From NCBI GenBank assembly GCA_945875845.1, contig CAMCMB010000041.1:1-60599 (forward strand): a stretch of 60,599 bases of DNA. Direction: 5' to 3'. Position numbers and translations under genes: made by a program. The notes beneath the pieces were generated by a model. The model saw nothing but the letters and a program-made list of their open reading frames with translations, was not told the DNA's origin and did no database searches. This DNA comes from Pirellula staleyi DSM 6068 (GTDB taxonomy: Bacteria; Planctomycetota; Planctomycetia; Pirellulales; Pirellulaceae). This document shows, in pieces, positions 2,301-53,730 of this stretch (position 1 is the stretch's first letter; each line of letters begins with the position of its first letter).

Positions 2301-2462
2301 TCGGTGAGTTTACTCGCGATGGGCAAAACATAGTCGCCTTTTGCTCCGCAAAGGCAGCGGACTTAACGCTACTTTCGCGGATAGTCTGTGAATTTATCCT
2401 GGTTGGCTCACCGGACGACTCGCGCCGTTCCGCTACCAGATGTTAGCGGCAGGGCGCCAGCC

Positions 2463-2595
2463 AAATGGCACTCACTTTGTAGCGGAACAGCGCAAGCTGT
2501 CCGGTGTCCGTAGTCAAATCACTTGGATATTCACCGGGCGGCTCTCGCCGCTCCGCTACGAAAACATTGGTTCGAACCGAAAGTGAGTGCCATTG
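2463..2595. mobile_element. 133-bp MITE with IS4-type ends
   Basis: Non-autonomous miniature element. The left end reads AAATGGCACTCACTTT and the right end, inverted, CAATGGCACTCACTTT: 15 of 16 positions agree. It is flanked by a 10-bp duplication, GGCGCCAGCC at 2453-2462 and GGCGCGAGCC at 2596-2605 (one mismatch). The same ends and the same target, in inverted orientation, bound the IS4-type remnant at 38954-39737, so that IS family is the likely source of transposase. The interior is mostly an 81-bp palindrome (2479-2559). Confidence 0.75.
2479..2559. repeat. Family B palindromic repeat, copy 1 (81 bp)
   Basis: Begins GTAGCGGAACAGCGC and ends GCCGCTCCGCTAC, with CCGGTG and CACCGG flanking a central 24-bp spacer that includes CAAATCACTT. 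The second copy at 13897-13977 is also 81 bp and is inverted relative to this one. The arms are imperfectly self-complementary, so the RNA or single-stranded DNA would fold into a long hairpin. Confidence 0.75.
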
Positions 2596-2741
2596 GGCGC
2601 GAGCCTTCCGGTGATGACCCAAGCATTTTTCACAGCCTAGGAGCGAAAGGCAGGGCGAGGGAGGCGAGGAGATAATAACATTTCATAGGGTGCGATTTTG
2701 CGTTGGTTTTGAAAACTTCTTGGTTTGAATGACCGTTGGTG

Positions 2742-7960: not shown

Positions 7961-8130
7961 CGCCCTTCAACGCAACTTTTGCGGATAGGCTTTGGATTTA
8001 TTCTTTTCGACTCACCGGACGGCTCGCGCCGTTCCGCTACCAAGCTCGCGCCGTTCCGCTACCAAATATGAGCGGCAGGGCGCAAGCCCTCCGGTGATGA
8101 CCCGAGAATTTTTTCACAACCTAGGAGCAA
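7961..8130. repeat. Family A palindrome without insertion
   Basis: Uninterrupted copy of the family A repeat. It runs from GCAGCG and GCGGATAGGC through GGATTTATTC, CTCACCGGACGGCTCGCGCC, the loop AAATATGAGCGGCAGGGCGC and CCCTCCGGTGATGA to TTTTTTCACAACCTAGGAGC. The outer arms are inverted repeats of each other. Inside, a 20-bp piece, GCTCGCGCCGTTCCGCTACC, is tandemly duplicated. This copy shows the empty target site GGCGC(A)AGCC into which elements have inserted in the other two copies. Confidence 0.75.
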
Positions 8131-13855: not shown

Positions 13856-13896
13856 GAATTCGGAACGGTGAATTTTGTGCCCAATCCAAGGTTCTT

Positions 13897-13977
13897 GTAG
13901 CGGAGCGGCGCGAGCCGCCCGGTGAATACCTAAGTGATTTGCGAGATGTCACCGGACAGCTTGCGCTGTTCCGCTAC
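13897..13977. repeat. Family B palindromic repeat, copy 2 (81 bp)
   Basis: An 81-bp palindrome starting GTAGCGGAGCGGCGCGAGC and ending GCTTGCGCTGTTCCGCTAC. Inverted, it matches the core of the MITE at 2479-2559, including the central AAATCACTT. It sits 13 bases before the chosen start of hpt and would fold into a strong hairpin in the hpt mRNA leader if transcribed from upstream. Confidence 0.75.
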
Positions 13978-13990
13978 AAAGCGACTCGAC

Positions 13991-31405: not shown

Positions 31406-31475
31406 TAGCCCAACGAGGCGTTGTGATGACTAAGCACATCGGTATGAGTCTTCGAGTGAAAGAAACTGATAGCCA

Positions 31476-31538
31476 TTGGGCGATAGCCCCGGTTCTCGAC
31501 GAATGTCGAGCAATTGGAAAACCGGGGCTATCGCCCAA
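31476..31538. repeat. Long inverted repeat (63 bp)
   Basis: Perfect 19-bp arms, TTGGGCGATAGCCCCGGTT and its complement, enclose a 25-bp centre that itself holds a small hairpin CTCGAC-GAAT-GTCGAG. It could fold as a cruciform or as a transcription terminator-like hairpin without a T tail. Confidence 0.85.
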
Positions 31539-31601
31539 CGGCTCATTGGTATGAAAAACATATGCGGATGTGCTTAGTAATGGTTTGTCCAGTGCGTGGC
31601 T

Positions 31602-35387: not shown

Positions 35388-36071
35388 CTAATCATCGATG
35401 AAATCCCAGCCGGCGGCTTGCCAATCTGGATGAATCCACCTCACCCATGAATCAACAGTCAGTCCTGCTTTCTCTGGGTTCTTTCCGATGTATTGGACGA
35501 CGTTCCATAAATGTTCTTCGTCACGAACGATGCGGTCGTAGCTCTCTTCCTCCCATAACATTCCTTCTCGTCCGAGTGTCCTGTTCACCCGCAATGCGAC
35601 GTATTGTTTGATCCGTTGAAGGCAGTCCTCCAACTCGTGGTCATTGATCGGTTGTATGATTGCATGAACGTGATTCGGCATCACCACGAAACAAGAAGTG
35701 AAGTGACGTTGATCCTGAAAGTGCACTAACGAATCAACCATCAGTTGAGAAAACCGAGAATCGCGAAGCACGCACGAACCATAGCCTTCATCCATCCACC
35801 GCTCGGTCTTGTTTGTGATTTCCTGAGCGAATCGCTTCCACTCTATTTCGTTACGCGGCTCCGGATGTTGCGATTCCCAGACAGCTCGCCAGCGTATGAG
35901 TGCCTGAAGTTGCTCCTGCGGAATGGAATCGGCCTGACGAAAAGTGGCAGCGTAAGTCGCACCCTCCTGCCTCCAGTGCGGCAGATGACGAAAATACATC
36001 CGAATGGGAAGATCCGGATGAAGTCCCCGAAAACGCGGAGGGGCAGGCTTATTGAATGTCGATGTGGTCAT
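35388..36071 (-). CDS. REP-associated tyrosine transposase (RAYT, Y1/IS200-like)
   Basis: A 227-residue HUH-type Y1 transposase of the RAYT kind. The HUH motif is in FVVMPNHVHAIIQP (about 130-143), and the region after it, QYVALRVNRTLGREGMLWEE then SYDRIVRDEEHLWNVVQYIG, contains the family Trp-Glu and the tyrosines near the expected nucleophile position, closing with KNPEKAGL. RAYTs cut and join single-stranded REP hairpins and are thought to spread or maintain REPs. The gene has a REP 5 bases past its stop and another 23 bases upstream of its start, forming a compact REP-RAYT-REP unit. It lies inside an operon that in its paralogue has no insertion, so it arrived by insertion. Confidence 0.9.
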   Translation of the reverse strand: MTTSTFNKPAPPRFRGLHPDLPIRMYFRHLPHWRQEGATYAATFRQADSIPQEQLQALIRWRAVWESQHPEPRNEIEWKRFAQEITNKTERWMDEGYGSCVLRDSRFSQLMVDSLVHFQDQRHFTSCFVVMPNHVHAIIQPINDHELEDCLQRIKQYVALRVNRTLGREGMLWEEESYDRIVRDEEHLWNVVQYIGKNPEKAGLTVDSWVRWIHPDWQAAGWDFIDD

Positions 36072-38898: not shown

Positions 38899-38953
38899 CT
38901 TTCGCTCCTAGGCTGTGAATTTATTCTGATTGACTCACCGGACGGCTGGCGCC
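38899..38953. repeat. Family A palindrome, left half
   Basis: CTTTCGCTCCTAGGCTGTG, AATTTATTCTGATTGACTC and ACCGGACGGCTGGCGCC, cut at its centre by the IS4-type element. The last ten bases, GGCTGGCGCC (38944-38953), are the left copy of the target duplication. Confidence 0.8.
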
Positions 38954-39737
38954 CAATGATACTCACTTTAGCGGTTTTTCGTCTGTTTCACTAGGTTTTT
39001 CTTTCCATTTGCGCTTTTGAAAGTGAGTCGTTTTGGGTCGACGCGTATAAGCCTCTCGAGGAAAACTGCGGCCTGGCCTGTTGGGCAGCTTTTGTTTTGA
39101 TGCGCGATCAAGCGCTATCTTGAACTGTTCCTGCCATTGTTCGACGTTGGTGATCGTCTTGGATTGGATGTGTTCGCGATAAACTGTCCACACTCCTGTA
39201 AAGCTGAGTTCTCGCGGTGTGCATTTGGCAAGGAACGATGCTTGTTGTCGCAATTGGCTCTTGAGGTTGTAGGCCACCATGGCCATACCAAGTTCTTTTC
39301 GAAACATTTCAACCGATTTGCATTTCAGCGATTCCGTGTCAAAAACCACTTTAATGTTGCGTATGTCGACCTCAATATGGTTACGTTGAAAGTACAAGTC
39401 CTTGAACGCCTTAGGGGATGCTGTTAGGTCCGTGACGATGTACAGCCATTGGTCTCCGTTGAGACGTTGGAAAAGCATAAGCCAAAAAACAACACTGGTT
39501 TTGTAGACAGCAGCATTTCCGAGGGGCTGGATTGCGTCAGACTCTTCAATATCGATCCATTGCTTGAGTAGTTCGAGTGCTGCGCTGAGTTGGCTTGGGT
39601 TACCTGAATCATCTTGATTTGGCACGATTGGCTCCTTATTGGCAGTTAGGAAAAGCCAATTCACATGCGCAATCACCGTGCCGAACGAAGGTTTATCCCG
39701 AAGCTAACTCTAAAGAATTCAAAAATGAGTACCATTT
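38954..39737. mobile_element. IS4-type insertion sequence, internally deleted (784 bp)
   Basis: Left end CAATGATACTCACTTT, right end (inverted) AAATGGTACTCATTTT; the pair agrees at most positions. Flanked by GGCTGGCGCC (38944-38953) and GGCTAGCGCC (39738-39747), a 10-bp duplication with one change. It has cut a family A palindrome in two. Full IS4-type elements are about 1.3-1.6 kb; this one has lost the middle of its transposase gene. The same ends define the 133-bp MITE at 2463-2595. Confidence 0.8.
38963..39676 (-). pseudogene. IS4-family transposase, in-frame internal deletion
   Basis: A 237-residue open frame joining the N-terminal part of an IS4 transposase (LSAALELLKQWIDIEE, AVYKTSVVFWLMLFQRLNGD) directly to its C-terminal part. 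The latter holds the family YREK signature, YFQRNHIEVDIRNIK (Tyr, Arg, Glu, Lys at the expected spacing), and AYNLKSQLRQQASF. The stretch with the first two DDE aspartates, about 200 residues, is missing, so it cannot catalyse transposition alone. The stop codon overlaps the left inverted repeat. The frame has stayed open, which could mean a recent deletion or a role as a regulator. Confidence 0.8.
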
Positions 39738-39830
39738 GGCTAGCGCCCTGCCGCTAACATTTCGTAGCGGAACGGCGCGAGCCGTCCGGTGAGTCAATCA
39801 GAATAAATTCACAGCCTGGGAGCAAAAAAT
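39738..39830. repeat. Family A palindrome, right half
   Basis: Starts with the right copy of the target duplication, GGCTAGCGCC, then CTGCCGCTAACATTTCGTAG, CGGAACGGCGCGAGCCGTCC, GGTGAGTCAATCAGAATAAA and TTCACAGCCTGGGAGC. Together with the left half it restores a complete family A repeat once the IS is removed. Confidence 0.8.
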
Positions 39831-50967: not shown

Positions 50968-53730
50968 ATGACCGCCCTAGCCAACCAACTTAGCCTAGAT
51001 CCAGGTATGCCCGAAACGGACACTCGCCTTGCTGTTTGTATTTCGCCCCAGGGGCGGTTGTTTTTGGAAATCAACGACGATCCTTTGGTGAAACCAATTG
51101 ATTCCGTGTTGGCTCAATTGTTAGTCGATGGTTTTGGAAAATCGCAGTGGTCAGGACTTACGCTTCTTGTGTGCAAGCAGTTCGATGTTTCGCTAAATCT
51201 GCCGCTCGACTTCTGGCGCCGATTCGCAGAAAGCTATTTTCAAGCCCTATGCAGGAATGCCTCTCAAAACGCCAAGCATTGGACCAGCCCTCGACCGCCA
51301 TCGGACGAGGATCTCATCGAACGCATCGATTCGGCCCCTGCGATGCGTGGACTGGAATACCTTAACGTCGAATCTCTCAAAACGATTTGGCATGAGCTCG
51401 ACAGTTACACCCTAAACGCTACCAAGTCTGCAAAAGAGGATCTGGCTAGCTATTTGCATGGACTCAATGCAGCCTGGAATCTCGTCGGGCGAGTAACGTT
51501 TCATTTGGCGGAAAATAAAAAGAATGAGCAATTTCCATTTGCCTTCCTTGCAACGTATACCGATGGCCATTCGACTACGGGGGCTTTACGTCATATTCCG
51601 TTGGCGGATGCTCTCAAGCAATCGATCATTGAAAAAGATACCGAACAATTGAACGTATTGCTGGAGCCAGTTCAGCGGGCTTCCGAAAAGTGCAAGCTGA
51701 TTCAGGAGTTGCTCGAATCGCGAGCATTGTTTTCCGCACAAGCCTGGTCGATTCAAACAGCGTATGAGTTCCTGACGGCTGTACCCGCAATGGAACATGC
51801 TGGAGTTCTAGTGCGGGTACCGAATTGGTGGAACGCGTCTCGTCCGCCGCGCCCCAGTATTCAAGTGCGCATTGGCCAAAAGAAAAAGCCTGGGGTGAGT
51901 TTGATTGACGCGCTCGATTTCAAAGTCGAGGTTGCATTCCAAGGCGAACCTCTCAGCCAAGAGGAAATCAGGCAATTGATGTCGGCCCGCGAAGACATGA
52001 CGCTTCTTCGGGGCCAATGGGTTCAAGTCGATGACCAGCGTCTGCAACAAGCCATGGACCAATGGGCCAAACTCGAACGCGAGCATGCATCAGGCATCGG
52101 ATTCCTAGAGGGGCTGCGATTGCTTTCCGGAACTCACATCGGCGGACTGGCGGTTGACGAAGAGGTTCGACAATGGTCGCGTGTCGAAGCGGGCGATTGG
52201 CTGCATGAAATACTCGATACGCTTCGCGACCCCAGCGGCGTCGTTCAAATCGATCCGCATCGAGGTTTAAATGCAACCTTGCGCAACTATCAAATCGATG
52301 GAGTCCGTTGGCTTTGGTTCACTACTCAGCTCGGCTTAGGCGCTTGTTTGGCGGATGACATGGGTTTGGGCAAAACGATTCAAGTGATATCCCTCTTGCT
52401 GCAGACAAAATCGCAACCCAACAGTCCCAAGAAGAAACAGGAAACTCATTCACCTAGTTTGCTGGTTGCCCCGACATCCTTGATCGGGAACTGGCAACGC
52501 GAAGTCGAACGATTTGCACCCAGTTTGAAAATGTTCGTTGCGCATCGTTCGCATCATGAGGCGAGCACGCTGAAACGCGTGGCGGAAAACCCGGTGGATG
52601 AACTGGCAGAATACGACTTGGTTGCTACGACCTATGGCTTAGCAAGACGCGAAGGCTGGTTGGCCGATGTTCCTTGGCGATTTTTGGTGCTAGACGAAGC
52701 GCAAGCCATCAAGAACTCGGGATCATCTCAGGCCAAGGCGATCAAGAAAATTCAGGCGGAAGGTCGCATCGTATTGACGGGAACACCCGTTGAGAATCAC
52801 TTGGGTGATTTGTGGTCGCTATTCGATTTTTGCTCGCCAGGGTTGCTGGGTACGGCGTCTCAGTTCAAAAAATTCCTCAACCGCGACGACAATCGAGGGA
52901 TCGCGTCGCTTCGCAAATTGGTTCGGCCTTACATCCTGAGGCGACTTAAGACGGATCCAGCGATTGCCCCTGACTTGCCGGACAAGACTGAGATGCGAGT
53001 GGATTGCGGTCTATCAGCGACTCAAACGGCCCTTTATCAAAAGATTGTCCTCGAGCTTGAGAAAACGCTCGACACGGCCACGGGCATTCAACGACGCGGC
53101 TTGGTGCTGTCGGTATTGATGCAATTGAAGCAGCTCTGCAATCATCCTGCGCTCTATCTGAAACAAGATAAGTTCGTTCACCAGGATTCGGGCAAGTTTA
53201 CGGAATTGCAAGCCATCTGCGAAACAATTTGCGAGAAGCAAGAAAAGGTTTTGGTCTTTACGCAATTCCAATCGATGTGCCAACCGATTTCCGATTTTCT
53301 GGCAACCCTCTTTGGTCGACCGGGTTTGATTTTGACCGGTAAAACGCTGGCCAAATCGCGCAGCAAGTTGGTGGAGGAGTTTCAGGAGGAGGCGGGACCG
53401 CCGTTCTTTGTCATCTCGGTCAAGGCGGGTGGGACCGGACTGAACTTGACGCAGGCTAGCCATGTGATCCACTTTGATCGTTGGTGGAACCCAGCGGTAG
53501 AGGATCAAGCGACCGATCGGGCTTTTCGGATTGGGCAAAAACGCAGCGTCCTGGTCCATAAGTTCGTATGTCGGGGTACATTGGAAGAGAAGATAGACCA
53601 AATGATTCGCGATAAAAAATCGATCAGCCAAGAGTTGTTCAGCGACGAAGGGGAGCTGAATTTGACGGAGATGTCCAATCAGCAGCTCATGAAATTTGTA
53701 GCCTTGGATATCAGCAAAGCTTCGACGTAG
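50968..53730 (+). CDS. SNF2-family DNA helicase/translocase
   Basis: A 920-residue SNF2/Rad54-type ATPase, expected to move along duplex DNA in the cytoplasm. The first ~430 residues are a helicase-associated region without catalytic motifs. Helicase motifs follow: Q-like RNYQIDGVRWLW, Walker A LADDMGLGKTIQ near 462, LLVAPTSLIGNWQREVERFA, the Walker B box FLVLDEAQAIKN near 574, LTGTPVENHLGDLWSLFDF, and in the second lobe KVLVFTQFQSM, SVKAGGTGLNLTQA, HFDRWWNPAVEDQATDRAFR with IGQKRSV. The gene is followed 50 bases later by a SWIM zinc-finger gene, a pair known to recur in bacteria. The role is likely in DNA repair or chromatin-like remodelling, not proven. Confidence 0.95.
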   Translation: MTALANQLSLDPGMPETDTRLAVCISPQGRLFLEINDDPLVKPIDSVLAQLLVDGFGKSQWSGLTLLVCKQFDVSLNLPLDFWRRFAESYFQALCRNASQNAKHWTSPRPPSDEDLIERIDSAPAMRGLEYLNVESLKTIWHELDSYTLNATKSAKEDLASYLHGLNAAWNLVGRVTFHLAENKKNEQFPFAFLATYTDGHSTTGALRHIPLADALKQSIIEKDTEQLNVLLEPVQRASEKCKLIQELLESRALFSAQAWSIQTAYEFLTAVPAMEHAGVLVRVPNWWNASRPPRPSIQVRIGQKKKPGVSLIDALDFKVEVAFQGEPLSQEEIRQLMSAREDMTLLRGQWVQVDDQRLQQAMDQWAKLEREHASGIGFLEGLRLLSGTHIGGLAVDEEVRQWSRVEAGDWLHEILDTLRDPSGVVQIDPHRGLNATLRNYQIDGVRWLWFTTQLGLGACLADDMGLGKTIQVISLLLQTKSQPNSPKKKQETHSPSLLVAPTSLIGNWQREVERFAPSLKMFVAHRSHHEASTLKRVAENPVDELAEYDLVATTYGLARREGWLADVPWRFLVLDEAQAIKNSGSSQAKAIKKIQAEGRIVLTGTPVENHLGDLWSLFDFCSPGLLGTASQFKKFLNRDDNRGIASLRKLVRPYILRRLKTDPAIAPDLPDKTEMRVDCGLSATQTALYQKIVLELEKTLDTATGIQRRGLVLSVLMQLKQLCNHPALYLKQDKFVHQDSGKFTELQAICETICEKQEKVLVFTQFQSMCQPISDFLATLFGRPGLILTGKTLAKSRSKLVEEFQEEAGPPFFVISVKAGGTGLNLTQASHVIHFDRWWNPAVEDQATDRAFRIGQKRSVLVHKFVCRGTLEEKIDQMIRDKKSISQELFSDEGELNLTEMSNQQLMKFVALDISKAST

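Follow-up and report, generated by a model that had tools for sequence, protein, structure and literature searches.

Does a transposase that inserts on the axis of a palindromic repeat recognise the folded repeat, or a short sequence lying on that axis? The question is raised by a 784-bp IS of Pirellula staleyi DSM 6068, located in a contig stretch of 60,599 nucleotides (the window), for which a sequence-only reading had proposed specificity for a repeated hairpin of family A. The answer given here with good confidence is that the element is a dead member of an IS4-subgroup lineage targeting an oriented 10-bp sequence, GGCTNNCGCC, that this core lies on the axis of REP units, and that many related MITEs bear the target themselves.

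The 784-bp element and the palindrome that it interrupts

The element occupies positions 38954..39737, with its transposase on the minus strand. Its 16-bp terminal repeats are CAATGATACTCACTTT (38954..38969, plus strand), adjoining the 3' end of the transposase ORF, and AAATGGTACTCATTTT (39722..39737, minus strand), upstream of that ORF. The flanking 10-bp target duplication consists of a left copy, GGCTGGCGCC (38944..38953, plus strand), and a right copy, GGCTAGCGCC (39738..39747, plus strand), identical at 9/10 positions; a longer duplication of 11-12 bp was ruled out, as bases of the two copies often differ outside the 10 bp. An in-frame remnant of 237 aa (38963..39676, minus strand) joins the N-terminal part of a transposase to a C-terminal part with YREK. 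When it is aligned with three relatives of full length (457-472 aa), an in-frame internal loss becomes apparent, with both catalytic D regions gone and YREK kept. The IS4 family model matches the C-terminal part of the remnant at 5.1e-12 and 45.5 bits, thus below the cut-off of 115. To judge from its coding sequence, the window IS is a dead, non-autonomous and internally deleted remnant. It is the sole match of a DNA search (E <= 0.001) of its own genome, a 7.0-Mb assembly of 149 contigs, and no intact transposase of the same type was found there by a protein search, whose matches were the window copy and a single other one at 32% identity. Among solved structures, none related to the transposase was found with support (best E 0.21).

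The full-length relatives indicate the family more firmly. All three score above the NCBIfam IS4 cut-off NF033592 (141-150 bits vs 115) and carry D79D107E and YREK, within the IS4 patterns D(60-110)D(100-150)E and Y(2)R(3)E(6)K. Full-length copies measure 1487-1493 bp, with ends CAATGGCACTCACTTT / AAATGGCACTCATTTT and 10-bp repeats, and have their 16-bp ends in common with the MITEs described below. The IS4 subgroup is characterised by ends of the form -AATR--------WTW, a length of 1400-1650 bp, direct repeats of 10-13 bp, YREK and a relaxed first base, and some of its elements have a strong target-arm specificity (De Palmenaer et al. 2008, PMC2266710, available part). The D79D107E spacing, YREK, ends, size and repeat length fit this subgroup in Table 1 of PMC2266710, and the relaxed first base is likewise shared; "pirellula" and "Rhodopirellula" are absent from the available text of that paper, where no statement of REP targeting was found for the IS4 subgroup. 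The window IS would accordingly be placed as an internally deleted member of an IS4-subgroup (DDE) lineage of Pirellula-type planctomycetes. At least 609 relatives at E <= 1e-30 were present among 7994 candidates scored from a large protein set, and 9/27 genus genomes, counting the own one, contain the exact end motif, which is absent from all of their controls. One of these genomes, G021, holds 45 exact ends, yet the window protein found no match there at E <= 1e-3; as this is a draft assembly, an intact copy may be missing there. A transposase scan of the named genomes gave three loci, all of them again in G014 and G020.

The IS interrupts one of the two inverted REP units which, with long outer arms, form a family A palindrome (38900..39827, no strand). 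As the sequence-only reading had claimed, removal of the IS and of one repeat restores a near-perfect palindrome: its 134 nt have arms 94% complementary over 54 nt and, folded as DNA, reach -69 kcal/mol (z -17.9, with 0/200 shuffles equally stable). The restored hairpin consists of two REP units of type GTAGCGGAACGGCGCGAGCCGTCCGGTG in opposite directions within the long complementary outer arms, and the intact partner unit lies at 39764..39791 on the minus strand, its opposite strand being GTAGCGGAACGGCGCGAGCCGTCCGGTG. The same reading had located the insertion at the centre of the palindrome. This is right for the axis of one REP unit (GGC-NNNN-GCC) and wrong for the whole palindrome, the axis of which lies about 18 bp away by coordinates. 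Its comparison copy, at 7961-8130, does contain an uninterrupted REP-A pair (8013..8096, no strand), and is less perfect than the restored palindrome (z -1.66 for the stretch 7990-8130, with 12/200 shuffles equally stable).

REP-A units have GTAG at their ends, occur in high copy (351 REP-A-like sites at <=2 mismatches in the own genome, vs 2 for a reversed-pattern control) and form inverted pairs in the window, the features by which REPs and REPINs are defined. They resemble in this respect the GTAG-tagged REPs and REPINs associated with RAYTs in the available parts of PMC2817692 and PMC3733652, the second of which names Planctomycetes among the hosts of GTAG/CGTC tagged repeats; unlike the REPINs of these papers, REP pairs are found here inside IS4-type ends as well. 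A search for a cognate RAYT, in seven stretches covering 8/19 own-genome Y1_Tnp matches, recognised no unit of REP-A or REP-B next to the Y1 transposase genes. The window itself holds a weak Y1_Tnp (HuH) match (35484-35690, E 3.6e-5, within 35388-36071, minus strand) and, at 50968-53730 on the plus strand, a 920-aa SNF2-type helicase with partial similarity to ZorD, for which the nearest model is SCO1167/SCO6262 (585.6 bits, below the cut-off of 1200).

The second target family, REP-B, is represented in the window by an uninterrupted pair held in a repeat with 10-bp inverted ends TAAGCACATC/GATGTGCTTA (31431..31576, minus strand). REP-B pairs also occur inside this separate repeat at L260-L266, L270, L250 and L251; the last two, from G014, have an exact IS-type end CAATGGCACTCACTTT where most own-genome copies have CTTCGGCTATCAGTTT or similar. 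The REP-B pair at L259 is enclosed by a different set of inverted ends, GGATTATTCA/TGAATAATCC, so the terminal shells around REP pairs appear to be of several kinds. Contig C1 holds several copies of yet another inverted repeat, GGGAGGGTGAGGCTCCTGCC..GGCAGGAGCCTCGCCC (L267, L268, L156), which is also present near one Y1-transposase locus.

The target core and the orientation of insertion

A second insertion in the window is the 133-bp element M1 (2463..2595, plus strand), whose ends are the same as those of the window IS. Its target duplication (GGCGCCAGCC at 2453..2462 and GGCGCGAGCC at 2596..2605, both on the plus strand) has copies identical at 9/10 positions and lies at the equivalent site of another copy of the palindrome, as had been proposed. 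With terminal repeats shared with the IS, the same duplication and a size too short for a transposase, M1 is a MITE. The sequence-only reading had counted the two as independent insertions; there are indeed two, but they belong to one system, because IS and MITE have their ends in common. Both duplications carry their mismatch at the N of GGCTNGCGCC. A systematic mismatch at this position was ruled out, and the difference is read as decay, because 14/31 own-genome duplications are exact.

How general is this target? A search of the own genome with M1 gave at least 44 matched stretches (among the best 40 of 154 candidates scored), and the end motif, with <=2 mismatches allowed, has 124 occurrences vs 12 for the control. 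From 71 own-genome loci (30 from the M1 search, the IS locus and 40 fetched further), 31 elements were kept, each with two ends and with flanks duplicated at 7/10 positions or more; L059 was removed as a spurious pairing, and L040, L051, L094 and L111 were added by hand. Loci were left out when a single end could be recognised, when the partner end was missing, or when the flanks matched at fewer than 7/10 positions, as in L057, L061, L118, L119 and L122, which have two ends and no flank match of at least 7/10. Of the 31 duplications, 14 are exact, while 10 agree at nine, 4 at eight and 3 at seven of the 10 positions. In relatives, 21 elements were kept of 60 loci, G021 alone supplying 35/60 loci and 14/21 kept elements; L152 (6/10) was excluded from the target-motif table. 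Among all pairs kept at 7/10, some may be due to chance (e.g. L195). Several contigs of the own assembly (L033, L034, L037, L038) end in a MITE or right next to one, so additional copies may be hidden by breaks in the assembly.

The claim of target specificity is borne out by these elements: the exact core GGCTNNCGCC is found in at least one duplicated copy at 25/31 own-genome elements, at 7/9 elements of G032 and G014 together, and at 15/21 kept elements of six genus relatives, being absent from both copies at 6/31 own and 6/21 genus elements. Across the 31 own-genome elements, positions 1-4 and 7-10 read GGCT..CGCC with 1.38-1.68 bits each, with an asymmetry that is somewhat inflated by the turning of sites to best fit GGCTAGCGCC before tabulation. 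Genome-wide, GGCN4GCC occurs 3243 times, GGCTNNCGCC 682 times and GGCTNGCGCC 319 times, vs 2436, 392 and 104 for the reversed-pattern controls. All eight full-length copies of G032 have exact 10-bp duplications, which fits an IS4-family duplication of about one helix turn.

Insertion is also oriented. Among 38 callable M1 copies, one is in conflict and 30 of the 37 unambiguous ones agree, with 7 reversed (p 1.9e-4). In 8/8 G032 copies and in the window IS, it is the CAATG end that adjoins the CGCC side; a partial G023 copy (L154) is reversed, with its CAATGG end at the AGCC side. The outermost element base, which lies outside the duplication, tracks the target side and not the element end in own-genome M1 copies (L049, L055, L060, L094, L118, L122 and others): where the M1 3' end faces the CGCC side, this base is C in 24 cases and T in 1, and where it faces the AGCC side, 4 of 6 cases have A and the other 2 have C. 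In the mechanism that we propose, the transposase joins the 16-bp ends to the 10-bp target GGCTNNCGCC and duplicates it, as the duplications show, probably by the cut-and-paste chemistry of its family, and the end behind the transposase gene usually adjoins the CGCC half.

REP preference and rival readings

Family A does not define the target. When flanks were scored with the core masked, 6 of the 31 own-genome sites fell in family A, 14 in REP family B (among them L093, which may instead be an M1-type REP), 1 in a MITE-borne REP, 2 in half units and 8 in neither. Most sites lie outside family A, the outcome that the sequence-only reading had itself named as refuting, and the supposed specificity for family A palindromes is therefore abandoned, even though the 10-bp core recurs: the specificity belongs to that core, which is common to several REP families. 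Units of at least two REP families bear it on their dyad axis, and for this reason REPs receive most insertions scored in the own genome. Strict REP flanks are found at 21/31 insertion sites vs 11/89 background GGCN4GCC sites (36 from the window and 53 from other own-genome loci; Fisher p 1.3e-8), a comparison that is rough because the background includes the finding's own REPs and loci fetched for holding repeats; against 11/29 background GGCTNNCGCC sites, the excess is modest (p 0.037). In G032 and G014, 7/10 sites are non-REP by the strict own-genome profile, and the flank score, tuned on own-genome REPs, called 1/8 G032 sites REP; by eye, L146-L149 lie in REP-B-like inverted pairs, L087 and L144 have the common context cctgcGGCTCGCGCCgcagg, and two copies (L065, L145) sit at cores outside any recognised REP. 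The element consequently falls outside type 1 of the REP-targeting ISs in the available part of PMC1525189, where all or nearly all copies lie in REPs.

Could the transposase recognise a REP hairpin or cruciform rather than ten bases? The core is the dyad axis of REP units, strong dyads exist at some non-REP sites (L051 at 16.5, L052 and L039 at 13.5, L047 at 12.0, for a background 75th percentile of 10.5), and the G032 sites L087 and L144 lie in 8-bp perfect stems. Nevertheless, complementarity beyond the core is equal at 41 insertion sites and 89 background sites (median 7.0 vs 7.0, p 0.29), and the 8 non-REP sites, at 10.75, are higher but not significantly so (p 0.13). The core is moreover asymmetric (T4, C7) and insertion oriented. 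Inverted repeats GGCTCCTGCC/GGCAGGAGCC make up 9 of roughly 100 GGCN4GCC sites listed on contig C1, and GGCTCCTGCC was used at 0/61 tabulated sites, a single-ended G014 element (L252) lying at the near match GGTTCCTGCC. Hairpin recognition was rejected as the targeting rule on the lack of excess complementarity outside the core, and with it the hairpin specificity of the sequence-only reading; we consider it improbable. Recognition of an oriented 10-bp sequence is favoured, because complementarity beyond the core shows no excess and insertion is oriented.

Two further readings were considered. If the element landed widely with little target choice, and mainly extragenic, REP-rich insertions survived, REPs would be enriched simply as extragenic sequences by definition, in which 11/29 of the background-sample GGCTNNCGCC sites are already located; extragenic survival may explain part of the REP excess. 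A 10-bp consensus in which 8 positions exceed 1.3 bits would not arise from survival alone, and the G032 copy L065 lies between two reading frames, apparently pieces of one transporter gene, and is still at CCCTCGCGCC, so that this reading is given little credence. Spread by recombination between REPs instead of transposition is the least credible of all: REPs are dispersed homologous sequence and flanks are mismatched at L057, L061, L118, L119, L122 and L152, but exact 10-bp duplications at 14/31 own and 8/8 G032 elements, and the same ends at non-REP sites, speak against it.

MITEs bearing their own target, and known systems

Under the preferred reading of an oriented 10-bp target, the interior of the MITEs deserves attention. 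That of M1 is made of two inverted REP units: REP1 (2479..2506, minus strand), with core AGCTTGCGCT, has kept its stem with GGC/GCC changed, and REP2 (2532..2559, plus strand) has core GGCTCTCGCC here and GGCTCGCGCC in the 17-copy consensus. The interior with this pair recurs at 13886..13984 on the minus strand (88.9% identity over 99 bp), where the IS-type ends are missing their outer parts. Among stretches fetched for M1-type REP2 away from listed MITEs, 0/4 (L255-L258) have two intact IS-type ends, and a fifth (L125) has both ends in degenerate form.

An exact GGCTNNCGCC core is present inside 36/51 MITE-sized elements, vs 0.001-0.011 per element after shuffling. By nine interior clusters, core-holding elements number 1/1, 24/28, 6/8, 3/3, 0/1, 0/1, 2/5, 0/3 and 0/1, the clusters without a core including the own-genome M2 type. 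As the largest cluster mixes own-genome M1 with G020 and G021 MITEs, the 36 core-holding MITEs represent related copies and not independent events. In the MITEs read, the cores are mostly within REP units: REP-A-type pairs lie inside L198, L202 and L219 (G021) and L246 and L249 (G020), a REP-B-like pair inside L230 (G003) and L254 (G002), and a single REP-B-like unit inside the G021 MITEs L199, L215 and L228; the exact core is absent from the interiors of L237 (G023) and L253 (G014). Elements nested at MITE-like cores were found at L095, L221 and L223, with weaker alignments at L053 and L093. With cores inside many MITEs, a new MITE brings new target sites, and these may drive further spread.

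REP targeting by an IS4-type element had been presented as new, a claim that falls with ISRm22 of Sinorhizobium meliloti, an IS4-family element already published, all copies of which lie in REPs and are inserted on the axis of palindromy (Tobes and Pareja 2006, PMC1525189, available part). The two elements are alike in family, in having copies in REPs and in insertion on the axis. They differ in that ISRm22 has 6-bp direct repeats (PMC1525189) and belongs to subgroup IS4Sa (PMC2266710), as given in the available parts of both papers, whereas the present element has 10-bp repeats and IS4-subgroup ends; unlike ISRm22, it also inserts outside REPs, and has target-carrying MITEs, none being mentioned for ISRm22 in the available part of PMC1525189. 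Insertion specific to REPs or palindromic units is also described there for IS1397 and ISKpn1 (IS3 family) and for IS621, ISPa11, ISPpu9 and ISPpu10 (IS110 family), whose families and chemistry differ from those of the present IS4 element. Among the literature matches listed, drawn mostly from outside subscription journals, titles and abstract openings held no description of MITEs carrying REP targets.

Taken together, the REP-directed transposons of the cited papers, as far as their available parts go, are from Proteobacteria, and the present case extends the habit to planctomycetes, with several REP families having one oriented 10-bp target in common. For this oriented landing rule, the element with eight copies in G032 offers a means of testing. 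The unusual and interesting part is the existence of MITEs that carry their own target. A self-seeding cycle, in which the transposase puts MITEs into REP axes and the REP pairs of these MITEs make new landing sites, so that REPs and DDE MITEs co-amplify across a planctomycete genus, is put forward as a tentative idea that we find somewhat less probable than its absence. The case makes it possible to ask whether transposons and repeats each increase the copy number of the other.
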